Source: Candidatus Aminicenantota bacterium (lineage in GTDB: Bacteria; Acidobacteriota; Aminicenantia; JAMOAD01). From it: a DNA stretch of 34,531 bases. Where the stretch lies: positions 1-34,531 of the forward strand of contig JAMOVU010000106.1 of the NCBI GenBank assembly GCA_027067555.1. Reading direction: 5' to 3'. Numbering within the stretch: position 1 is the stretch's first letter; every line of letters starts with the position of its first letter. The position numbers and the translations under genes are program-made. Shown here one piece after another: positions 3,655 to 34,054 of the stretch. Under the pieces are notes generated by a model. That model was given only the letters and a program-made list of their open reading frames with translations. It did no database searches and was not told where the DNA came from.

Positions 3655-4453
3655 CCAGCTTGTTGAAAAAACCCTCGTTGAATTTTTAAAGGATGAGATA
3701 ACCAAATTCGGATTTAAAAAGGGAGTGATAGGCCTTTCAGGTGGCCTTGATTCCACTGTAGCGGCTTTTCTCGGAGCAAGGGCACTGGGCAAAGAAAACC
3801 TTGTGGCACTGGTACTTCCTTATAAGAGTTCTGACCCTAAAAATATAAATGATGCTGTTGAAATTGCCGGTATCCTGGGAATCAAACACTATAAAATAGA
3901 CATTACTGCTCAAATTGATATATATTTTGAAAAAAATCCCACGGAGGATAAACTTCTTATTGGTAATAAAATTGCCCGGGAGAGAATGTCAGTTATTTTT
4001 GACTATTCTGCTCGCGAGAAAGCAATGGTAATAGGTACATCAAACAAAACAGAGCTTCTTCTGGGATACGGTACATGGTACGGAGATCTTGCATCATCCG
4101 TAAATCCTTTGGGCGATCTTTACAAAACTCAGGTTTTTGAACTTGCAAAGTATCTGGGAGTCCCTGAAAAAATCATAAAAAAGACTCCCACTGCGGATCT
4201 CTGGCCCGGGCAAACTGATGAAGGGGAGATGGGACTAAAGTATGAGGTCGCTGATAAAATCCTTTATATGATTTTTGATCAGAGAAAATCAAAAGAGTTT
4301 GTTATAAAATCAGGATTTGATGAAAGAATTGTAGAGAAGATTTTATCTATGGTGAAAAGGTATCAGTTTAAAAGGACTCTTCCCATTATCCCGAAATTAT
4401 CCCATAGAACAATAGGTAAGGATTTTCTATACCCGAGAGATTGGGGCGTTTAA
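3641..4453 (+). CDS. nadE: NAD+ synthase, ammonia-using subunit
   Basis: This enzyme amidates nicotinic acid adenine dinucleotide to NAD+ using ATP, the last step of NAD synthesis. The PP-loop motif SGGLDST lies at residues 33-39, and the conserved GTSNKTE...GYGT...NPLGDLYKTQV block follows. The product is 270 residues, the length of ammonia-dependent NadE. I chose ATG at 3641, preceded by GAAGGT, over an in-frame GTG at 3629. Either start lies inside the 3' end of the amidase gene, so the pair is coupled and likely forms a complex. The stop shares the bases TTAA with the stop of the convergent diguanylate cyclase gene. Confidence 0.93.
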   Translation: MKINSQLVEKTLVEFLKDEITKFGFKKGVIGLSGGLDSTVAAFLGARALGKENLVALVLPYKSSDPKNINDAVEIAGILGIKHYKIDITAQIDIYFEKNPTEDKLLIGNKIARERMSVIFDYSAREKAMVIGTSNKTELLLGYGTWYGDLASSVNPLGDLYKTQVFELAKYLGVPEKIIKKTPTADLWPGQTDEGEMGLKYEVADKILYMIFDQRKSKEFVIKSGFDERIVEKILSMVKRYQFKRTLPIIPKLSHRTIGKDFLYPRDWGV

Positions 4454-11646: not shown

Positions 11647-12810
11647 ATGCTTGAGAGGGTAGAAAATAGCTTGCCCTATTTTGCTATTTTGTATGCTCCG
11701 TTAACCCTTATCTCAATCTCTTTGGCTGAGATTGTTCTTTTCACAGGTATAATTTTATATCTGTTTCTTATCTCAAAGGGAAAGTATAGATTTGAGTATC
11801 CTAAATTTTTTATACCCCTGATTTTTTATGCCGGATTTTCAATTATTTCCTCTTTTTTTTCATACTTACCGCTTAGAAGTCTTTTTTCGCTTAAAGAGCT
11901 TTTTTTATTCCTTGCTGTTCCATTTGTATTTTCTGTTCTTAAAAGTGAAAAGGATAAGATTGAGAAGGTAAATTCCTATTTTTTTTATACTGTTTTACTA
12001 TCTTTTCTCCTGTCTCTTTTTCAATTTGTCTATTTTATTTTAAAAAAATCTCCGTCTCCACGCTCTTTCGGATTTGAAAGCCATTATATGACTCAGGCCG
12101 GGATAATGATGATTCTTGCAATTTACAGTATTACTTATATCCTTGAAAAGGGAAAGGAAAGCGACTATAAAATTTTTGGAATTTTTGCACTTTCAACTTT
12201 AAGCCTTCTCCTTACTCTGACAAGATCAGCATGGCTCGGGCTTATTGTGGCAGGAGCGATTCTTGTTTTTAGAAAAAAGCCCATTCTTATTTTTGCGGGA
12301 ATTTTTGCAATTATCATAGTTTTTCTCATCGCTCCAGCTCCGCTGAAAAATCGCATTCTTTCATTTACAAATATGAAAGATATAACATTTCAGAATAGAA
12401 TTATAATGATTAAGAAGGGAATTAGGATGATAAAGGATAAACCTTTGTGGGGAATAGGGCCGGGGATGGTGAAGTATGCTTATACTGTGCCCCGCTTTAA
12501 GGTTGAGGAAAAAGAGGAGCTGCATTCCCATCTTCACAATAATTTTATTCAGATCTGGGCTGAAAGAGGGGCATTTACTGTTTTAAGCTGGCTGTTTTTT
12601 GTAGCAATTCTATTTTACTCTCTGATAAAATTAAAGCCGGATAGCAAATTTTTCATAATCGCCAGAGAATCTGCAATTTATATTTTTATCGCCTTTCTTA
12701 TTGCGGGAATGTTTGAATTTAATTTTGGAGATTCAGAAGTTTTAATGGTGCTTTTCTGGTTTTTAACAGTACCTTTTTTAGAGGGTGAGACAATAAAGCC
12801 TGATAAATGA
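11647..12810 (+). CDS. O-antigen ligase / polymerase-like membrane protein (WaaL family)
   Basis: The ATG at 11647 follows GAAGGAG and gives 387 residues; an upstream in-frame TTG at 11623 is less likely. About ten hydrophobic helices surround a large loop (about residues 240-305) with TRSAW before it and the motif GIGPGMVKYAY, then HSHLHNNFIQIWAERG. This is the Wzy_C/O-antigen ligase signature, in which the conserved His and Arg contact the lipid-linked glycan. Members join O-antigen to lipid A-core or act on related glycans at the periplasmic face. No other glycan genes are adjacent, so the substrate is unknown. Confidence 0.88.
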   Translation: MLERVENSLPYFAILYAPLTLISISLAEIVLFTGIILYLFLISKGKYRFEYPKFFIPLIFYAGFSIISSFFSYLPLRSLFSLKELFLFLAVPFVFSVLKSEKDKIEKVNSYFFYTVLLSFLLSLFQFVYFILKKSPSPRSFGFESHYMTQAGIMMILAIYSITYILEKGKESDYKIFGIFALSTLSLLLTLTRSAWLGLIVAGAILVFRKKPILIFAGIFAIIIVFLIAPAPLKNRILSFTNMKDITFQNRIIMIKKGIRMIKDKPLWGIGPGMVKYAYTVPRFKVEEKEELHSHLHNNFIQIWAERGAFTVLSWLFFVAILFYSLIKLKPDSKFFIIARESAIYIFIAFLIAGMFEFNFGDSEVLMVLFWFLTVPFLEGETIKPDK

Positions 12811-23419: not shown

Positions 23420-26400
23420 ATGGATGAGTTCAGGGCTATAAAGGTTGAAGCATCAGCAGGGTCGGGTAAAACTTACAGATTAACCCTTGAATATCTTAAA
23501 AGATTGTACAAAACTTTTCTATTATCAGGAAAAAAGCTTGACAGCAGAGTATTAAATTCAATTCTTGCGATAACATTCACAAAAAAAGCTGCCAATGAGA
23601 TGAAGGAGAGAATCTTAAAGAGGCTCAAGGCTTTCTCTCTTGCAAAAAGCAAGAGTGAACTTTCGGATGATGATAAAAAATTTCTCAAAACACTTTCGGA
23701 AATATCGGAAATCTCGGAGAAGGAAATTTTAAAAAGTGCTGAATCCTTAATGGAGCTTATTCTATCATCTTTCACTGATTTTAATGTTAAGACCATAGAC
23801 TCACTTATGAGCTCAATAGTAAAAGTTTTAGCCTCTGAGCTTGAACTTGATCCTGAGTTTGAGATAAGGGTTAACTCATCGGAGGAGCTTGAAGATAAGA
23901 TTTTGAGTTTTACTGAAAAATTGGCAAGGGATTGCTGGGATGAGATTGAAAATTTCTTGCTTGATCTTTTTAAAATAGAAAATCTTGAAACATGGTCACC
24001 TCAAAATAAGATAATTGAGAGGATTAAGGGGCTTTACAATTTGAGCATTAAAAGGGATATTGAAGGGATTTTGAGTACTGATGTTGAGAAAATTGCGGAA
24101 AATCTATTTAAAAAGATTGAAGTATTCAAAAGTTTACTTGGTGGAAACGGAGGCCTTTTAGAGCTGTTGGAAGAGGGTTTTGAAGGGAAATATTTTAATG
24201 GAACAAGAGTAAGAGATTCACTCAAAGAAAAAATCACGGATTTTTTGAGTGATGAAAAATCGGTTAACAAAGTAGAAACCCTTGTTTCAATTGCTTTTTT
24301 TAAATATGAAAATCCTGAAGTTATTTTTAGTAGTAAAAGATCCACCCCTGAATTTAAAGCGAGATTTACACCCGTTTATAAAAAGGCAAAAAAACCGATA
24401 CCTGAAATTATAAAATTATTATCTATCTACAAAATAAGCAATTTTATAAAATTCTTTTCGGATTTTCACAAATTCTGGGATACTTCAAAAAAGAACATAT
24501 ATGTTGAGGAGTTCAGTAAAAAGATAAGGGATAAGCTTACGGAATGGAAGGAGTTTGCTCCTCCCTTTCTTTACCTGAGATTATCAGAAAAATTTTATCA
24601 CTTTCTCATAGATGAGTTTCAGGATACAAGCGAGCTTCAGTTCAAGGCGCTTTCTCCTTTAATTGATGAGGTTTTTGCAGGTGAAGAGAATTCAAGCCTT
24701 TTCATAGTTGGTGATAGAAAGCAGGCTATTTACAGATGGAGGGGAGGAAGCTCAGAACTTATGAACAATGAAAATCTTTTAGATGAACTTCCTTCACTTA
24801 AAAATATCAAAGAGAAAAATTTGGATGATACTCTTGAATACAATTTCAGAAGCGGAAAAGAGATTGTTAAATTTAACAATGAATTTTTTTCACAGGATAA
24901 TCTTAGCGCAATTGTTAATAATCCGGAAGCTGTTGAGCTTGTGGTGGAAAACTTTAAAAATGCAGAGCAAAAACCTGTAATAGAGAATGATGGCTATGTG
25001 CGTGTTGAGTTTATAGATGATGCGGATGATCCGGACGAAAGCTATTTTGATTCCATACGCAAAAGTATTAAACTTGCCCTTGATGCGGGGTTTAAACATT
25101 CGGAGATTGCAATTCTGGTCAGGAAAAATGATGAGGGAAGGGATATTATAGAAAATCTTTCTGATGAATACGATTTTTTCAGCGATGAATCACTATTTCT
25201 ATCCTCATCTCAAAAGATTTCCGAAATAATAAGTTTTTTTAAATTTATTGAGTATCCCCCGGATAATCTCAGCTTTTTTACATTTATAAACGGAGAAATT
25301 TTCAAAAAATCCGCAAAAAAAGTATCGGAAGAGGAAGCCGGGAAACTTTTTTCAGGAATTGAGGATTTTTATCTTGATAATAAGGATAAAAGGATTTACA
25401 CAGTATTCAGAGATGAATTTCCCTATCTCTGGAAAAATCTTATAGCTCCGTTTTTTAAATCTGTCGGATTTCTTCCCCCCTACGATATTTTTCAGGATTT
25501 TACTATGATTTATGAGCTTTACGACAATTTCCCGGATGAAGCTCCCTTTTTTGCAACATTCAGTGAGCTACTTCACGAGCTTGAAGACAAAGGTTTTTCC
25601 TCTGTTGCTTCTTTTTTGGAAAGATGGGAAGAAGATCAGGGAGATGAGAGTATTTCAAAAACCTCTGTTCCCCTTGAAGAGGCTTATGGAAAAATTAAAA
25701 TTCTTACAATGCACAAATCGAAGGGGCTTGAATTTCCTGTGGTGATTCTTCCCCTAAAAGAAAAAAGTAGAAGTGATGGAGGAAGAGATTCGAAATTTTA
25801 TCTTGGAAAGAATATCCATTATATTAAAAAAGATTTTGCAACCATAAATAATGAATTAAAAGAGCTTTATATTGATGAAATAAAGAGAGGATACGTTGAT
25901 GAGCTTAATATTCTCTATGTGGCAATGACAAGGGCAAAGGATGCTCTCTTTGTGCCTATTATCATAGCTAAAAATGATAAGCCGAAAAAATCAGAGTATG
26001 AAAAATTCAGAGGTTTTGCCGCTGCTTTTAAAAATCATCCGATTTTTAAAGATTGGGAGAAAAAAAAGATTTTTGAATGGGGAATCTTAAAATCAGATGA
26101 AGAGGAAAGTGAAAAAGCAGAGTCAGAGTACTTTAAATATGCATCAAAAAAGATAATAACCAGAGAATGGCAAAAAGATTTTTTGGTCTTTTCTCCATCT
26201 CAGATTTTATTGCCTGAAGATAGAAAGCTTATTGACAGAGGTAAGAGAATACACAGAGTTCTTGAGAAAATAGAAAAGGTCAAAGATTCCGAAGAGATGG
26301 AAATTTTACTTAAAGTTTACGCAGAAGCCGAGGGTCTTAATAATGATGATATTGAAAGTTTAAAAAGATTTTTTATGAGGGATGAAATTTTAAATTTCTA

Positions 26401-26665
26401 TACGGGGGAATTTGAGGTTTTCAATGAAAAGGAGCTTTTGAAAAAAACGGATGATAGTTTTGAAATAAAAAGAGTTGACAGGCTTATTGTAGGGGATGAT
26501 GAGTTTATAGTCATTGATTATAAAGCAGGAGAGGAAAAATCTGACGAACACCTGGAGCAGGTAAGAGAATATCTATCCATTTTAAAGGAGTTTTACAGTG
26601 AAAAAACAGCTAAAGGTTTTCTTTTTTACATTGAAAAAGGGGAGATTGAGGAGGTAAAGCTTTAA
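23420..26665 (+). CDS. addA: AddA-type helicase-nuclease subunit (UvrD family)
   Basis: This 1081-residue protein is a double-strand-break resection enzyme. Walker A is ASAGSGKT (11-18), followed by TFTKKAANEM. The DEFQDTSELQ box is near 397, GDRKQAIYRWRGG near 430, and YNFRS soon after. LTMHKSKGLEFPVV is near 762 and LYVAMTRAKDAL near 831. The C-terminal PD-(D/E)XK nuclease has RIHRVLEKI and then VDRLIVGDDEF...VIDYKAG (about 1018-1035). That fits AddA rather than RecB-only helicases. The start has GTGAGGT upstream. The stop overlaps the ATG of the partner gene by one base. Confidence 0.93.
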   Translation: MDEFRAIKVEASAGSGKTYRLTLEYLKRLYKTFLLSGKKLDSRVLNSILAITFTKKAANEMKERILKRLKAFSLAKSKSELSDDDKKFLKTLSEISEISEKEILKSAESLMELILSSFTDFNVKTIDSLMSSIVKVLASELELDPEFEIRVNSSEELEDKILSFTEKLARDCWDEIENFLLDLFKIENLETWSPQNKIIERIKGLYNLSIKRDIEGILSTDVEKIAENLFKKIEVFKSLLGGNGGLLELLEEGFEGKYFNGTRVRDSLKEKITDFLSDEKSVNKVETLVSIAFFKYENPEVIFSSKRSTPEFKARFTPVYKKAKKPIPEIIKLLSIYKISNFIKFFSDFHKFWDTSKKNIYVEEFSKKIRDKLTEWKEFAPPFLYLRLSEKFYHFLIDEFQDTSELQFKALSPLIDEVFAGEENSSLFIVGDRKQAIYRWRGGSSELMNNENLLDELPSLKNIKEKNLDDTLEYNFRSGKEIVKFNNEFFSQDNLSAIVNNPEAVELVVENFKNAEQKPVIENDGYVRVEFIDDADDPDESYFDSIRKSIKLALDAGFKHSEIAILVRKNDEGRDIIENLSDEYDFFSDESLFLSSSQKISEIISFFKFIEYPPDNLSFFTFINGEIFKKSAKKVSEEEAGKLFSGIEDFYLDNKDKRIYTVFRDEFPYLWKNLIAPFFKSVGFLPPYDIFQDFTMIYELYDNFPDEAPFFATFSELLHELEDKGFSSVASFLERWEEDQGDESISKTSVPLEEAYGKIKILTMHKSKGLEFPVVILPLKEKSRSDGGRDSKFYLGKNIHYIKKDFATINNELKELYIDEIKRGYVDELNILYVAMTRAKDALFVPIIIAKNDKPKKSEYEKFRGFAAAFKNHPIFKDWEKKKIFEWGILKSDEEESEKAESEYFKYASKKIITREWQKDFLVFSPSQILLPEDRKLIDRGKRIHRVLEKIEKVKDSEEMEILLKVYAEAEGLNNDDIESLKRFFMRDEILNFYTGEFEVFNEKELLKKTDDSFEIKRVDRLIVGDDEFIVIDYKAGEEKSDEHLEQVREYLSILKEFYSEKTAKGFLFYIEKGEIEEVKL

Positions 26666-29601
26666 TGAAAAGATTAAGATATATTGGGCTTGAGGAAAGT
26701 ATAATAGGTAAGGTCGTAGAAGAGCTTTTGGCGGATAAAGATTTTAGCCTGACAGAGCATAAAGTCATTTTTCCATCAAGAAGAATGGGAGTTTTTTTAA
26801 GGGATAAACTATCTGAAAATTTGAAAAATAGCATTGTTTTGCCTGAGATTTACACAATAGATGATTTTGTCTTCAAGTGTTTTGAGATAATAAATCCTGA
26901 ATTTTCGAAGATTGATGAAACAGAAGCTCTGATTGTAATTTATGAAATTTTAACTCGGGAAAAACCTGATAGTTTTTACGGATTATCTCCTGAAAAGGGC
27001 TTTTTCGGAAATTATTCCTTTCTTTTGAAAATATTTAAGGCTATTGAGGAGATTTCAGTTGAAAGTGAAAATTATGAAAGTGTAAATCCCGATGAGTTTG
27101 AAATTTTCGTTGAACTCGGAGATTATCACGAAGGCTATAAAAATTTTATAAAATATCTTCCCGAGTTGATTTCCATTTTTCACAGAAAATTAAAAGAGTT
27201 AAAAAAGTACACAAGGGGAATGGCTTATGCGGAGGTTTCAAGAAACCCGGAAAAAATTTACGAAAAATTTTCAGGTAAAAAATTTATATTTGCTGGTTTT
27301 AATGCTCTAAGCTCTTCTGAAAAAGGGATTTTAAAGTATGTATTTGAAAATTTTAACTCCACTCTTATAATGAGAGGGGATAAAAATGCTTTGAATGATA
27401 AAAACTCTCCCTTTCATCTCCAGCGGGATACGATAGAGATTTTGGGCTTTTCCGGTGATGAAATTGAATATAGCGGAGAAAAGGGCTGGAAGGATTTTTC
27501 AGAGAGTGTAAGGATTTACTCTGTTCCTGATACTGAAAGTGAAATGCATCTTATAAAAAAGGTATTTAAAGATGAGCTTTTGCAGGACAGTAGCGAGAGT
27601 GAATATTTGAAAAAAACAGGAATAGTTTTATCTGATCCATCCTCTCTAATACCGCTTGTTCAAAATATTGTATCTTCATTTGAAAAGGATAAAATACCTC
27701 CTTTTAACATAACATTGGGATACCCTTTCGGAAGAACTCCTCTTTTTCAATTGTTAGACGCAATGATGGGATTAAGGGAGAATACTGAAAACGGAAGATT
27801 CAATACCAATGATTATCTTGCTCTGATAAGACATCCATATGTAAAACTCACGGGCAAGTATCAGGAAGAGGAGCTTTTGAAAATTGCAATTCACAGAGTG
27901 GAGGATTTGATTTCAGAGCAGAACATTGTTTCAACTGATAACGATGAATTGGAAAAGCTTTTGGAAAATAAAATTAAAGAGAAAAATGATGATGTGAGAA
28001 TTCTCGAAGAGCTTAGGGAAGCGCATGAAAGCTTTGTTTTCAAAGGTAATGGTTTTTCAGAGCTTTTGGATTTTTTTGAAAAGGCACTTTTAAAAATATA
28101 CGAAAGAGGAGAAAACAGCAGTTATCTTTTCTTAAATGAATTTTTGGGGACAGCACTTAACTCAATTGAAAAATTGAAATCATTGTCCGAAGAAAAGGAG
28201 AGTGTGTTTTCGGAAAAAGATTTCAGAGCAATAAGAGTTTTTTTAAACTCATACTTTAGGAATGTAAGGATAAATTTCACAGGCTCTCCACTTAAAGGTA
28301 TTCAGATAATGGGGCTTATGGAATTCAGAGGGCTTGATTTTGAAAGGGTTGTGATAACCGATGCTGTCGAAGGTATTTTGCCGTCAGTTTCAAAGTATGA
28401 TCCGATTTTACCTGTTGACATAAGAAAAGTATTCGGAATGAGAACATATCCCGAAAGGGAAACTCTTATAGCCTATGATTTTTTCACATTGGTTAATAGA
28501 GCTAAAGATGTCAGGCTTTTTGTGCCCCATAAATCAAGTGATGAAAAAGTTGTTGAGCGAAGCAGATTTATAGAGAGAATAATTTACGAAAGAGAGAAAG
28601 CAGGTGAAAACCTTGAGCCCGAAAAATTCAAAGTATCTCTTTCAATAAAAAAAGAGGATTTAAAACCTGTTAAAAAGAGTGAAAGAGTAAAAGAGGAACT
28701 TAAAAAATTCTCATTTTCCCCATCCTCCATTGAGATGTATATTAAATGTCCTTTGAGATTTTATTATTCAAAGGTTTTGGGGCTTGAGGAGAGGGAAGGT
28801 GTGAGCGATGAACCTGATGCCGGAACACTCGGAACAATTATTCACGATTCTCTGAAGAGAATTTACTCTGACAAAAGCCTTGTTTATGAAAAAGATGTTG
28901 AAAAAATTAAAGCAAAAGCCTTTGAGATCCTGGAGCAAGAATTCAGGGCAAAAAATTTTGACCTTTCAAACGGGCTTTTAAAAATAAAATTCTGGATAGT
29001 AAAAGAGAGAATCTCAGAGTTTCTTGAAAGTGATATTAAAAGGGTTAGATATAATGGGATCAAAATAAAAGAGGATTGGCTTGAAAAGCCTCTTACCAAA
29101 AAGATAAAATTTGCAGAAGATCTTGAAGCCACAATTAAGGGAAGGGTAGACAGGATTGAAAAAGAGGGTAATATAGTAAGGATAATTGATTATAAGACAG
29201 GTAATAATATGAATGGGATAAAAATTTCTAATTTAAAAGAAATCAAGGAATATTCACCGGAAGGTAATGAGTATTTTGAGTTTCTTAAATCCTTTGAAAA
29301 AGCATTTCCACCCCTTCAATTGTTAATTTACGAAAAACTTTACTCTGAGCTTTTCGGAAAAAACTTAAATGAGATAGACTCGGCTTATGTATTTTTAAAG
29401 AAAAAAAATCCTCAGGTTGAAAGTATTTACGGGAAAGATGGTATAACTGACGAAGATAAAGCTATCCTTTTTAACACATTTGAAGAAAATCTCGGAATAA
29501 TAATAAAGGACATACTTGAAAATGAATACTTTCTACCCAACCCTAAAGATTCAGGCTACTGTTCTTACTGTCCGTTTAAAACCCTTTGCGGGAATATCTG
29601 A
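26665..29601 (+). CDS. addB: AddB-type iron-sulfur nuclease subunit
   Basis: This 978-residue partner of AddA has a helicase-like N-terminal body without an intact Walker A motif. Its C-terminal RecB-type nuclease has FSPSSIEMYIKCPLRFYY (first Cys about 695), GTLGTIIHDSL, IKGRVDRIE and IIDYKTG. It ends in GYCSYCPFKTLCGNI, whose three cysteines complete a 4Fe-4S site. ATG overlaps the addA stop (TAATG), so the two are coupled. The last 38 codons are repeated downstream at 31094-31209 beyond an inserted ATPase gene. The present C-terminus may therefore have been delivered by that insertion. Confidence 0.92.
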   Translation: MKRLRYIGLEESIIGKVVEELLADKDFSLTEHKVIFPSRRMGVFLRDKLSENLKNSIVLPEIYTIDDFVFKCFEIINPEFSKIDETEALIVIYEILTREKPDSFYGLSPEKGFFGNYSFLLKIFKAIEEISVESENYESVNPDEFEIFVELGDYHEGYKNFIKYLPELISIFHRKLKELKKYTRGMAYAEVSRNPEKIYEKFSGKKFIFAGFNALSSSEKGILKYVFENFNSTLIMRGDKNALNDKNSPFHLQRDTIEILGFSGDEIEYSGEKGWKDFSESVRIYSVPDTESEMHLIKKVFKDELLQDSSESEYLKKTGIVLSDPSSLIPLVQNIVSSFEKDKIPPFNITLGYPFGRTPLFQLLDAMMGLRENTENGRFNTNDYLALIRHPYVKLTGKYQEEELLKIAIHRVEDLISEQNIVSTDNDELEKLLENKIKEKNDDVRILEELREAHESFVFKGNGFSELLDFFEKALLKIYERGENSSYLFLNEFLGTALNSIEKLKSLSEEKESVFSEKDFRAIRVFLNSYFRNVRINFTGSPLKGIQIMGLMEFRGLDFERVVITDAVEGILPSVSKYDPILPVDIRKVFGMRTYPERETLIAYDFFTLVNRAKDVRLFVPHKSSDEKVVERSRFIERIIYEREKAGENLEPEKFKVSLSIKKEDLKPVKKSERVKEELKKFSFSPSSIEMYIKCPLRFYYSKVLGLEEREGVSDEPDAGTLGTIIHDSLKRIYSDKSLVYEKDVEKIKAKAFEILEQEFRAKNFDLSNGLLKIKFWIVKERISEFLESDIKRVRYNGIKIKEDWLEKPLTKKIKFAEDLEATIKGRVDRIEKEGNIVRIIDYKTGNNMNGIKISNLKEIKEYSPEGNEYFEFLKSFEKAFPPLQLLIYEKLYSELFGKNLNEIDSAYVFLKKKNPQVESIYGKDGITDEDKAILFNTFEENLGIIIKDILENEYFLPNPKDSGYCSYCPFKTLCGNI

Positions 29602-29611
29602 TTAACGTTTT
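29486..29611 (+). repeat. Direct repeat copy 1: 3' end of addB
   Basis: This segment matches 31094-31219. The first 32 bases are identical. By hand alignment about 13 differences follow up to the stop, five of them silent, two in the stop codon, and the rest changing only three residues (E/H, L/I, K/R). Similarity continues about ten bases past the stop, then ends. Confidence 0.9.
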
Positions 29612-29675
29612 CTTGAAAATTCGTAAGAAAAAAGATTACTGAAGACATTTTTCGTAAACTTTTGTACGATAGATA

Positions 29676-30980
29676 TTAGCTCTTAAACAGAGATTTTACG
29701 AGTTCTGGTATTAACCACAGGGGATAGAACAGAATTTCCGTTTCTTTGAATATTCTGCTTCCATAAAGATTCAAATTCAAATAGTATGCCTTTTGAGGTT
29801 TATAATTTTCAATATAGCTTATAAAACTTTTTGTTAATGATGGTTTCTTGAGTTTTGAGGATTTAACTTCAATCGGAATACCATTTATGACAAAATCCAC
29901 CTCGGCTCCACCTCCCTTGCGCCAAAATTTTAACTCAAAGCCATTCTTTAAAAATTCCCCAAAAACAAAGTTTTCATAAAGCTCTCCGGAAATGTCCGTC
30001 TTATTTAAAAGGTTTTCTCTCACATAATTCATTAACCCCGTATCAATTGCAAATATCTTAGGTACTTTTGAAACTTCCTTTCTTGCATTGGTAAAATAGG
30101 GAAAAACCCTTTTGAATATATAAGTACCTTCAAGATAATCAATGTATTTTTTAACACTTCTCACATTAAGTCCCGAGTAAACGCTGAGTTCATTGTAATT
30201 GATAAGGTTTCCTATCTGAAAAGCAAGACCTTTTACCAAATTATTGTATCCGCTTATGTTATCAACATTTAAAAAATCCTTAACATCTTTTTTAACATAA
30301 GAATCATAGATTTCTTTTAATTCAATAATCTTATCCTTTTTATCTTTTGATAAAATGACTTTCGGATAGCCTCCGTAAACAATAAACTCAATCAGGAATT
30401 TTAATAGTTCCTCATTATGAAATTTAATTAATTCCCCGGGAGTTTTTTTATCTAATATGTCAACACCTTTTGCCTTTAAAAATTCTCCGAATGAAAAAGG
30501 ATAAATTTCAAATGTATGTTTTCTTCCGGTTAAATGTTCTGATATTTTGGATTTTAATTCAAGTGAGGATGATCCGGAAACAATAATTTTTAACTTTAAT
30601 TTCAAATCACTTATAAGTTTCAGAAAAATCCCCGGATTTTTAAGTCTCTGAATTTCATCAATGAATATGTATTTGAACCCCTGATATTCCGAATTAATAA
30701 ACTGAATAAAATCAGTGTATTGTTCAAAATAAGGATGAAGGTTAAAATCATCAAGGTTAAAATAAAAAACGGATTTTGGCTCAACACCTTTTTTCAAAAG
30801 ATTATCAATTATATTCATAAGAATAGTTGTTTTACCAACCTGTCTTCCACCTGTGATAACCGTAATAGCAGAAGAATTAATATCTTTCAAAATATCAGGT
30901 AGAATCTCTCTTTCAATGGCATTAAAATTAAATTTACCCTCTCTCCACGGATTTTGAAAAATAAAAGATATATAATTCAT
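29676..30980 (-). CDS. AAA_14 / DUF4143 ATPase
   Basis: I place the start at ATG 30980, five bases after the -10 box, giving 434 residues; an ATG five codons earlier overlaps the promoter. The N-terminal AAA_14 domain has Walker A GGRQVGKTT, Walker B YIFIDEIQRL and SGSSSLELK. HLTGRKHTFEIYPFSFGEFL then leads to the DUF4143 domain, which ends with AEVDFVINGIPIEVKSSK, a PD-(D/E)XK-like pattern. These ATPases are patchily distributed and often multicopy in bacteria and archaea, with no settled role. Here the gene lies antisense to addB, between two copies of the addB 3' end, which indicates recent insertion. Confidence 0.93.
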   Translation of the reverse strand: MNYISFIFQNPWREGKFNFNAIEREILPDILKDINSSAITVITGGRQVGKTTILMNIIDNLLKKGVEPKSVFYFNLDDFNLHPYFEQYTDFIQFINSEYQGFKYIFIDEIQRLKNPGIFLKLISDLKLKLKIIVSGSSSLELKSKISEHLTGRKHTFEIYPFSFGEFLKAKGVDILDKKTPGELIKFHNEELLKFLIEFIVYGGYPKVILSKDKKDKIIELKEIYDSYVKKDVKDFLNVDNISGYNNLVKGLAFQIGNLINYNELSVYSGLNVRSVKKYIDYLEGTYIFKRVFPYFTNARKEVSKVPKIFAIDTGLMNYVRENLLNKTDISGELYENFVFGEFLKNGFELKFWRKGGGAEVDFVINGIPIEVKSSKLKKPSLTKSFISYIENYKPQKAYYLNLNLYGSRIFKETEILFYPLWLIPELVKSLFKS

Positions 30981-30985
30981 ACACA

Positions 30986-31014
30986 AATTTAGCATAAACC
31001 CTACATTATGTCAA
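30986..31014 (-). promoter_or_regulatory. Sigma-70 promoter of DUF4143 ATPase, leaderless
   Basis: On the minus strand TTGACA (31009-31014 on plus) lies 17 bases from TAAATT (30986-30991). The -10 ends five bases before ATG 30980, with no ribosome binding site. Confidence 0.7.
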
Positions 31015-31035
31015 GTAGAAATGCACAAATATACC

Positions 31036-31089
31036 TTTTCACCCCAGTGTAAAAATGCATAGCTATGCTATTTTACCATGGGATGAAAA
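31036..31089. repeat. 54-bp imperfect palindrome beside ATPase promoter
   Basis: Arms 31036-31062 and 31063-31089 match at 22 of 27 positions. The core GCATAGCTATGC is perfect, and the flanks are GTAAAA/TTTTAC and TTTTCA/TGAAAA. It lies about 20 bases upstream of the ATPase -35 and five bases from the second addB tail copy, so it could be the element's end or an upstream binding site. Confidence 0.75.
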
Positions 31090-31093
31090 AGAC

Positions 31094-31209
31094 AAAATCT
31101 CGGAATAATAATAAAGGACATACTTCATAATGAATACTTTATCCCCAACCCTAAAGATTCTGGCTACTGCTCTTACTGTCCATTTCGAACCCTCTGCGGG
31201 AATATTTAG
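31094..31209 (+). pseudogene. Second, detached addB 3' end (direct repeat copy 2)
   Basis: The frame here encodes a diverged copy of the AddB tail, including GYCSYCPFRTLCGNI, then TAG. It has no start and a stop (TGA 31084-31086) lies just upstream, so it cannot be expressed alone. Differences from the intact copy are mostly silent, so both were under selection as coding sequence before they came together. It is most simply the original addB end, displaced by the insertion, or one carried in from a relative. Confidence 0.88.
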
Positions 31210-31333
31210 TTAATCTTTTAAACTTTCCATTGCAGAGGTGTTTTTTACAATTGAAGGTAAAAACCGTAAAGTTAAGTCTTCTTACAAAGTTAAATTAAAT
31301 GTTTTCTTTATCTTTTTCCTTTTGTTTGTTTAT
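31210..31333. other. Intergenic stretch before the PhoD-like gene
   Basis: Apart from about ten bases continuing the repeat, this stretch is AT-rich with pyrimidine runs. I see no gene, hairpin or repeat in it. Confidence 0.5.
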
Positions 31334-31362: not shown

Positions 31363-31442
31363 TGGAAATGATGAGTAAGAATAAGCAAGAGAATAGATTG
31401 AAAGAACAGTTTAAAGCTTCAACATTTGTGTACAATAGATGA
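31362..31442 (+). CDS. Possible short leader peptide coupled to PhoD-like gene
   Basis: A 26-codon frame (or 24 from ATG 31368) ends with TGA in an ATGA overlap with the PhoD-like ATG. The downstream gene has no ribosome binding site of its own, so ribosomes finishing this frame could restart there. The peptide is polar (MMSKNKQENRLKEQF...). Short length makes chance possible. Confidence 0.45.
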   Translation: MEMMSKNKQENRLKEQFKASTFVYNR

Positions 31443-34054
31443 TTAATAAAATAATAAAGAAATATATCCTTTTGTTTGGGTTTATTGTTTTATCTCTTAT
31501 GGTTGCTCTAAACTCTTATTCAATGACCAAAAATGGCAAAAACTTTTCCGAGTCTTTTCCTGAAGGGATAACAAGAATCTGGATTGGGCCTCAATACTGG
31601 GCAAATCGCTTACAGGACTGGCAGGTTAATAATGGCAGATTGGAGTGTGTCACTTCTCAACCGAATCGGAATGTTAATATTCTGACATGGCGGCTGAAAA
31701 AGGAAGATGGTGATTTTGTAATAATGTTTAAAACAGGTCTTCTTTCCCCTGAGCTTTCGGGAGATAGAATGAGCTGGATTGGCTTGAGAATTGGAGCAAG
31801 AGGAAAATTCAATGATTATCGTGATGATGCCATCTACGGAAAAGGACTTAATGCAGGTATTACCACAGCCGGAGAGCTCTTTATTGGGGATTTACCGGTA
31901 AAAGAGGATGGTAATGCAAAAGCTCTAATTCCTTTTGTAAAAAAAGGTTTGATTTTAAAATATGAATTAAAACACCGGAAGGGAGTATATAAACTTATTT
32001 TAAGTGCGATTAATCCTGAAACAGGGAAGGTCATTTCTTCGGTTGAGGAAGATGATGTCCCATATCAGCAATTATACGGTAGTATAGCTCTGGTAAGCAG
32101 TTTTAACAAAAAGCCGAAAAACAATGAGATTCCAAGCTGCTGGTTTGATGATTTGATTATGAAGGGTTCAAAATTGGTTCATTATCCCGAGCGCAAGTTT
32201 GGTCCTATCCTCTTTGCTCAATATACACTTAGCAGAAATATCTTGAAAATGAATGCTCAGATGCCACCGGTCGGGGATAAGGATGGAAAAGAAGTTAGCT
32301 TTCAAATTAAGAAAAATAGTGATGGAAATTGGATTACAATTCAAAGGGCACCGATTGATAAGGATGCCAGAACAGCTACTTTCAGAATTGAAAATTGGGA
32401 TGATACAAAGGATGTTTCCTACAGGCTGGCATATTCTCTTAACACGGGAAATGGAAAGATGAGAGAGTTTTACCTTACAGGTACAATCAGAAAAAATCCT
32501 GTGGATAAAGAAAAGTTTGTCCTGGCAGCTTTTACGGGAAATAATGATCTCGGTTTTCCCAATAAAGAGGTTTATGAAGCAATCAAAAAACTGAATCCTG
32601 ATATGTTGTTTTTTTCGGGTGATCAGATATATGAAAGAGTCGGAGGTTTTGGAGTTCAGCGTGCTCCTCTTGAAAAAGCCATTCTGGATTATCTTAGAAA
32701 ATGGTATCTTTACGGATGGGAGTATGGTGAGCTTTTCCGTGACCGTCCCTCAATAAGCATTCCGGATGATCATGATGTTTATCACGGAAATGTTTGGGGA
32801 TGCGGAGGCAAAGCGGCACCTAAAGATAAGAGGGGATACGAAGCTCAGGATGCAGGAGGATATAAAATGCCTGCCCGCTGGGTGAAGATGGTTGATAGAA
32901 CGCAGACAGCCAATTTACCGGACCCTTATGATCCCACACCTGTAAAACAGGGAATAGATGTTTATTACACATCCTTGAACTATGGTGGCTTGAGTTTTGC
33001 CATTGTTGAAGATCGTAAGTTCAAATCCGCTCCAAAACCATTGCTGCCTGAGGCAAAGGTGGTCAATGGCTGGGCGCAAAATCCCAACTGGGATCCTGTT
33101 ACTCAGGGGGATGTGCCGGGAGCAAAACTATTGGGTGACCGTCAGCTTAAATTTCTTAATCATTGGGTTGCCGACTGGTCCCATGGGGCAAAGATGAAAG
33201 TCCTTCTTTCGGCTACCATATTAGAGGATCTTGCAACTCTTCCAAGTGGTGAACACTTGGATGAGATTGTTCCCAGGTTAAGAATACTGAAAGAGGGCGA
33301 GTATCCTCCGGATGATGAGCCTGTAGCCGACATGGATTCCAATGGATGGCCTCAAACAGGAAGAAACAAAGTTGTGAAAATCATTCGCAAGGGTTTTGCT
33401 ATTCATATTGCGGGGGATCAGCATTTGGCAAGTTTTACGCAATACGGAGTGGACGATTGGAGAACAAGTAGTTTTGCATTTTGTGTCCCCGCCATTTCAA
33501 ACATTTGGCCCCGTCGCTGGTATCCAAAGGAGGGTGGTAAAAACCGTAAACCGGGAGCACCGAAATATACAGGTGATTTTTTTGATGGTTTTGGTAATAG
33601 AATGACTGTTTATGCTGTTGCAAATCCTGTGTATACCGGTAAAAAACCTTCAAAGCTCTATGATCGCTCAACGGGTTATGGAATTATTGTTTTTAACAAA
33701 AAAACAAGAGAGATTACCTCACATTGCTATCCCCGTTTTGTGGATCCAACATCTCCCAATGTCAGGGAGTATCCCGGATGGCCCATTACAATTAGTCAGT
33801 TTGACAATTACAGACGCAAACCTTACGGATGGCTGCCAACAATAAAATCAGACATAATTGATCCTGTTGTAAAAGTATTTAATGAAAAGACAGGAGAGCT
33901 CGTGTATGCTGTCAGGATAAAAGGTAATACTTTTGACCCTCCCGTATTTGAAGATGGAATTTATAGAATAGAGGTAGGAGATGATGAAAGGGGAGGATAC
34001 AGGAAGTATGATGGGCTCAGACCTGAAAAGAAAAAGGGAGCTAAAAGATTATAA
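31439..34054 (+). CDS. Exported PhoD-like metallophosphoesterase, large form
   Basis: This 871-residue protein starts with a signal peptide or anchor (basic start, hydrophobic 9-24). Residues about 38-245 form a beta-sandwich-like region with IGLRIGARG and WFDDLIMKGSK, resembling carbohydrate-binding domains. After a linker comes a PhoD-type metallophosphatase: FSGDQIYER (GDQ 394-396), IPDDHDVYHGN (443-451) and HIAGDQHLAS (659-662) supply metal ligands. It probably cleaves phosphodiester or phosphomonoester bonds outside the cell. Comparable long forms occur in planctomycete-like genomes rich in polysaccharide enzymes. The next gene encodes a beta-helix protein. Confidence 0.85.
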   Translation: MINKIIKKYILLFGFIVLSLMVALNSYSMTKNGKNFSESFPEGITRIWIGPQYWANRLQDWQVNNGRLECVTSQPNRNVNILTWRLKKEDGDFVIMFKTGLLSPELSGDRMSWIGLRIGARGKFNDYRDDAIYGKGLNAGITTAGELFIGDLPVKEDGNAKALIPFVKKGLILKYELKHRKGVYKLILSAINPETGKVISSVEEDDVPYQQLYGSIALVSSFNKKPKNNEIPSCWFDDLIMKGSKLVHYPERKFGPILFAQYTLSRNILKMNAQMPPVGDKDGKEVSFQIKKNSDGNWITIQRAPIDKDARTATFRIENWDDTKDVSYRLAYSLNTGNGKMREFYLTGTIRKNPVDKEKFVLAAFTGNNDLGFPNKEVYEAIKKLNPDMLFFSGDQIYERVGGFGVQRAPLEKAILDYLRKWYLYGWEYGELFRDRPSISIPDDHDVYHGNVWGCGGKAAPKDKRGYEAQDAGGYKMPARWVKMVDRTQTANLPDPYDPTPVKQGIDVYYTSLNYGGLSFAIVEDRKFKSAPKPLLPEAKVVNGWAQNPNWDPVTQGDVPGAKLLGDRQLKFLNHWVADWSHGAKMKVLLSATILEDLATLPSGEHLDEIVPRLRILKEGEYPPDDEPVADMDSNGWPQTGRNKVVKIIRKGFAIHIAGDQHLASFTQYGVDDWRTSSFAFCVPAISNIWPRRWYPKEGGKNRKPGAPKYTGDFFDGFGNRMTVYAVANPVYTGKKPSKLYDRSTGYGIIVFNKKTREITSHCYPRFVDPTSPNVREYPGWPITISQFDNYRRKPYGWLPTIKSDIIDPVVKVFNEKTGELVYAVRIKGNTFDPPVFEDGIYRIEVGDDERGGYRKYDGLRPEKKKGAKRL

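Follow-up and report, generated by a model that had tools for sequence, protein, structure and literature searches.

By its architecture, the nearest described parallel to the locus reported here is a class of mobile endonuclease ORFs with C-terminal duplication in fungal mitochondria, known from atp6 of Allomyces and from atp6, atp9, cox2 and nad3 of Glomus (PMC3630166). In these elements a foreign C-terminus lies in phase with the resident gene and the native C-terminus is displaced downstream; the ends measure about 50-280 bp, differ mainly by silent changes and have ORF-less relatives, and according to the same paper the endonuclease was shown biochemically to be responsible for mobility (PMC3630166). 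The gene inserted at our locus belongs to the PDC-S01 family, which is described as an ATPase fused to a PD-(D/E)XK domain and as a single-gene phage-defence candidate, ranking fourth among the most common defences in prokaryotes and with multiple transfers across domains, most such candidates still awaiting experimental validation (PMC12988326). Selected PDC-S01 passages of that paper do not discuss entry into genomes or gene-end duplications (PMC12988326), and the literature filed under DUF4143, COG1373 and PDC-S01, as represented largely by titles and the opening of abstracts, does not describe this mode of insertion.

In the window, a stretch of 34,531 nucleotides, a comparable architecture is seen at the end of addB (26665..29601, plus strand). 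This gene of 978 codons follows an addA-like gene (23420-26665), matches the Pfam model PDDEXK_1 and, weakly, the AddB models, and its end now lies within the first of two direct copies of its own last 38 codons. The copies (29486-29611 and 31094-31219, both plus strand, offset 1608 bases) reach 10 bases beyond the stop codon and are identical at 111 of 126 positions (88%; local BLAST E = 5e-43), in agreement with what the sequence-only reading of this DNA had claimed. Their first 32 bases (29486-29517 and 31094-31125) are identical and all 15 differences lie downstream of that block; with randomly scattered differences, a gene-internal identical run of this length has a probability of about 0.01 (p = 0.014). 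Apart from a few bases, the similarity ends at 29486/31094. Eight of the last 37 codons are changed, five silently and three with a change of residue (E/H, L/I, K/R), and both copies keep the reading frame, a stop codon (TGA and TAG) and the C-x2-C-x5-C cysteines which the same reading had assigned to an Fe-S site. The second, displaced copy lacks the body of the gene and is followed by a PhoD-like gene (31439..34054, plus strand, Pfam), presumably the original downstream neighbour, which is absent from the same-genus genomes G001 and G002. The genome also contains a second full-length addB, 39% identical (G000:C127:2919-4013, L062), and contig G000:C149 (L061), which breaks off in the same addB tail, seems to be a strain variant of the downstream region. 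This isolated tail was rejected as an extra displaced end, since it is where the contig of a strain variant of the second addB stops.

Between the two copies lies one gene only (29676..30995, minus strand), the antisense AAA_14/DUF4143 ATPase that had been proposed from the letters and that is borne out by Pfam (AAA_14 E = 3e-33, DUF4143 E = 9e-32, both above cut-off). It matches the PDC-S01 model in PADLOC with E = 7e-77. Its PD-(D/E)XK-type motif, E365-x-D367...E376-x-K378, is intact; E365, D367 and E376 do not vary among 30 relatives, and K378 hardly does. The AlphaFold model (pLDDT 87.5) places strands at the motif; a whole-chain fold search of the PDB returned ORC/Cdc6 and STAND-type ATPases as best matches and did not confirm a nuclease fold, and a sequence search of the PDB returned only PPR designs, which were discarded as spurious. 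A probable promoter can be read on the minus strand (30986..31014), with TTGACA (31014-31009), a spacer of 17 bases, TAAATT (30991-30986) and an ATG 5 bases further on at 30980; because of this spacing, 30980 is more likely to be the true start than 30995. The same layout recurs at the C115 copy in the own genome and at the copies in genus g7. An imperfect palindrome of 54 bases (31036..31089; fold z-score -5.0), single-copy in the own genome, separates the promoter from the displaced addB end. It may be an operator, a terminator or a recombination-related structure, and an Rfam search across the locus gave no match.

The arrangement is not confined to addB. Seven short coding-end duplications, the window included, each surround exactly one AAA_14 gene: besides addB, they involve the ends of the genes for methylmalonyl-CoA mutase (L188, in G046), a MORN-repeat protein (L116), FtsZ (L323), RarA/MgsA (L336) and a phosphodiesterase (L347); at hsdM (L138) it is the 5' end that is duplicated. 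The addB, mutase, MORN and hsdM cases came from a first set of loci (80 AAA_14/DUF4143 loci from relatives in the class and 15 copies from the own genome), in which 724 genes were checked for displaced pieces of themselves; the scan otherwise picked up transposase-like fragments, a single fragment of an ATPase, a paralogue fragment of ambiguous status and a doubtful ORF. The ftsZ, rarA/mgsA and phosphodiesterase cases came from a second set. Gene-end duplications were thus found at 7 of 123 AAA_14 genes against 1 of 1243 other genes, an excess of about 70-fold in a sample where most loci are centred on AAA_14, and none enclosing a gene was seen in 578 kb of random stretches. The displaced pieces in the main set are all short (23-41 codons), the repeats range from 36 to 210 bp, and the target sequences have nothing in common between loci. 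On this point the sequence-only reading, which had proposed a one-gene unit with a second, diverged copy of the gene end but without an obvious recombinase, is supported by the recurrence of this arrangement at other genes.

Flanking direct repeats, counted when present on both sides of a gene within 800 bp at E<1e-6, show a similar tendency. They were found at 20 of 86 AAA_14 genes in the first set, compared with 4 of 175 size-matched neighbours and none of 160 size-matched genes in the random stretches, which were not chosen for AAA_14 (p = 1.5e-10), and at 8 of 37 AAA_14 genes against 1 of 73 neighbours in the second set (pooled 28/123 vs 5/248, p = 1e-14). Of the first set's repeats at AAA_14 genes, about half are of a dispersed intergenic kind, and with L126 (repeat-like sequence) and L143 (a hairpin) left out by eye, locus-specific repeats amount to about 9 of 86 against 0 of 160. 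The repeats at L173, L141, L168, L174, L185, L180 and L191 were rejected as dispersed, L125 represents nested remnants of the ATPase gene itself, and the ambiguous partial paralogue fragment at L127 was not counted. Outside the Aminicenantes-type class the signal almost vanished, with a repeat at only 1 of about 22 new loci in a small and differently chosen sample. Nearly all genomes surveyed are draft assemblies.

The own genome has 15 DUF4143 genes. The one most closely related to the window ATPase is bracketed by a 37-bp direct repeat of 89% identity (L020, G000:C115, 10559-10595 / 11887-11923), the left copy of which is that gene's own promoter. In L026 (G000:C135, 9968-10215), two adjoining fragments, a C- and an N-terminal part of the neighbouring AAA_14 gene, lie 3 kb from it in the same orientation. 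In G015 a sequence of about 100 bp occurs three times (L169 2756-2868, 4686-4797, 6536-6632), separating an AbiEi/AbiEii pair and an AAA_14 gene.

If these duplications mark insertions, relatives with an uninterrupted gene end should exist, as had been anticipated, and such relatives are seen for mutase and for ftsZ. G046 has three copies of the mutase end (L188 1-3600), first in the gene and followed by the ATPase, then followed by a propeller-like lipoprotein gene, and finally beside the native neighbour. In eight relatives of genus g7 the mutase end is joined directly to the very gene that G046 has after its third tail copy. The distance from ftsZ to the same neighbour is about 1.6 kb at the occupied locus, and 13, 13, 13, 84 and 159 bases in G012, G024, G060, G038 and G048. 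The ATPase at ftsZ in G050 is furthermore the same gene as that found near an MFS transporter in two sister species, G008 and G036 (87-88% over about 1.2 kb), and the homology covers only the promoter (about 50 bases upstream), the gene and some 10 bases after its stop. From this it follows that the unit consists of promoter plus gene, moved between non-homologous places. At addB itself, an end joined directly to the sequence after 31210 was not found in the genomes searched; these include two others of the genus, one with an addB that ends near a contig edge and neither with the PhoD-like neighbour. For L162, no empty site could be recovered within its genus.

Genes of other kinds were also observed at such positions. 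In G034, a genome of another genus, the addB end is duplicated on two contigs (L063 3884-4057, L064 1638-1811), where it adjoins ParE (toxin-antitoxin) and HTH-peptidase M78/PIN-type genes. In G029, also of another genus, addB has a Type ISP restriction-modification gene directly downstream, together with an AAA_14 gene (L067 1829-6386). A YhcG-type PDDEXK gene lies between 148-bp direct repeats in G056 (L118 2359-2502 / 4289-4434), the right part being identical and the contig ending there. In G036 the mutase end is directly followed by two R-M-like genes, one of them methyltransferase-like and antisense (L206 1958-3345), with no displaced tail within the 16 kb covered; the end of the mutase gene looks like a hot spot. 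A lone NTP_transf_8 gene in the own genome is placed tightly between two copies of a 42-bp palindromic sequence (L027, G000:C196, 2640-2681 / 3683-3724).

The explanation we consider probable is that the AAA_14/DUF4143 unit was imported together with the addB end of another lineage, the resident end being displaced. The gene would move as a compact unit with its own near-leaderless promoter, and at addB it would have come from another lineage with the last ~40 addB codons of that lineage. Recombination within the addB end would attach the imported end and the ATPase gene to the body of the resident addB, leaving the resident end, now useless, stranded on the far side beside the resident neighbour. 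Since addB stays intact, the host would pay little for an insertion that falls at a conserved and useful gene's end. We infer that the imported copy is the one now within the gene and that the recombination took place inside the identical block. Recombination with a relative's addB locus, earlier put forward as the main alternative to mobilisation of the unit, is thereby kept as part of this explanation; a donor of the addB end was not found among the genomes searched, and the tails compared for placing a donor, among them those of the mutase gene, were too short to assign the foreign copy.

The closest contender is homology-facilitated illegitimate recombination, in which a donor addB end pairs with the resident one, the other side is joined illegitimately, and the ATPase is a passenger, merely a frequently gained gene. 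We regard this as a serious possibility, if somewhat short of probable. Such recombination is described in transformable bacteria and has tentatively been held responsible for 3' regions left displaced within Vibrio T6SS arrays (PMC5361080). Homology at one junction and none at the other is compatible with every one of our cases, and other cargoes, namely the propeller lipoprotein gene of G046 (between mutase tails 2 and 3), the toxin-antitoxin genes of G034 and the YhcG gene between its 148-bp repeats, are similarly placed. Random illegitimate junctions, however, should leave displaced pieces of all lengths and fragments of neighbouring genes, whereas the displaced pieces are uniformly short and the cargo is one gene, and the 70-fold enrichment of AAA_14 (7/123 vs 1/1243, most sampled loci being AAA_14-centred) also speaks against a passenger. 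In the preferred explanation, the ATPase-nuclease would by contrast cut near the gene end and aid the event in a homing-like manner. Since the few non-ATPase cargoes share the arrangement, an ATPase-specific mechanism is unproven. The suggestion that the ATPase mobilises the unit accordingly gained no clear support from our survey, where 13 of the 15 AAA_14/DUF4143 copies in the own genome are without detectable tail duplication; that the ATPase drives its own transfer is a plausible reading short of proof.

If a recombinase acting in trans had integrated the unit site-specifically, in the way non-autonomous islands enter at the 3' ends of genes, the identical block would be an attachment core. 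The pattern of an identical core followed by divergence, part of the original proposal, recurs at rarA (70 bases, p = 0.0005) and ftsZ (29 bases, p = 0.04) in addition to the window, and the insertions stacked at one gene end in G046 would also suit this reading. The core is nevertheless significant in only 3 of 9 pairs (combined p = 0.02) and not at the mutase, MORN, hsdM or G034 addB ends, the targets share nothing, the hsdM target is the 5' end of its gene, and the unit has no recombinase, so that we consider such integration unlikely. Taken together, an identical block and targets without a common sequence would fit recombination that proceeds through a short stretch of gene-end homology, whether or not the ATPase-nuclease cuts.

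A transposon-like insertion that duplicated a long target site, with later drift of the displaced end, appears slightly less likely still. The same ATPase gene does occur at unrelated sites, and the two ftsZ ends resemble each other more than they do the ftsZ end of any relative, which leaves room for a local origin of the ftsZ duplicate. On the other hand, the unit has no transposase, the repeats vary from 36 to 210 bp, and in five pairs pooled the copies differ at 19 silent and 9 amino-acid-changing codons, where a neutral simulation expects about 7 silent ones and none of 20000 runs matched the observed excess. This argues that the copies diverged mainly as parts of working genes, one of them probably from another lineage, and disfavours a simple target-site duplication that drifted. 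An assembly chimera of two strains, conceivable in a draft genome with strain variants such as contigs C127 and C149, is very improbable, and an artefact appears unlikely in general because the second copy is flanked by unique sequence sharing no long word with the first, the same architecture occurs in several genomes and the uninterrupted relatives fit a true insertion.

Our data point to a route by which a lone gene can enter a genome via gene-end duplication, of which we found no account for bacteria. Such a route would let the widespread lone PDC-S01 gene enter genomes without harm to the target gene, and raises the question whether PDC-S01 serves defence, spreads selfishly or does both. 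Recent acquisitions may be recognised by their scar, a short gene end with silent divergence on the far side of a lone gene, and some caution is advisable with the last few dozen codons of genes such as addB, ftsZ and rarA, which may have a history apart from the rest of the gene. A wider idea, which we hold to be doubtful, is that the PDC-S01 ATPase-nucleases are the bacterial counterpart of the gene-end-carrying homing endonucleases, self-spreading, cutting near conserved gene ends and entering with a replacement end; if true, this would help to explain the spread of a lone 'defence' gene.

Among known systems, the PDC-S01 models are matched by the window protein and by the four other units tested. 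Integrase islands at the 3' ends of tRNA or protein genes resemble the locus in having a replacement end, an identical core and a displaced original end, but here the element is one gene long (AAA_14/DUF4143 only) and carries no integrase or other recombinase, there is no common target, and the core is not universal. The repeats are locus-specific gene ends without the common attC-type sequence of integron gene cassettes, and their length of 36-210 bp, mainly silent divergence and lack of an accompanying transposase distinguish them from those of insertion sequences and transposons. As in Rhs/CDI and Vibrio T6SS loci (PMC5361080), a newly arrived module becomes fused to a conserved upstream portion, while old 3' parts remain downstream, sometimes stacked; unlike in these toxin-immunity loci, the targets are housekeeping genes and the end still encodes the same protein. 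The fungal elements share the single ORF near a gene end, the short extra gene end beyond it, the mostly silent differences and, for mutase and ftsZ, the ORF-less relatives. They differ in encoding LAGLIDADG or GIY-YIG enzymes, whereas the bacterial unit encodes an AAA+ ATPase whose end is PD-(D/E)XK-like, a predicted nuclease, has its own promoter, and occurs in either orientation and sometimes at a 5' end. The architecture thus matches that of the fungal homing class, as a likeness of form and not as a claim of membership.
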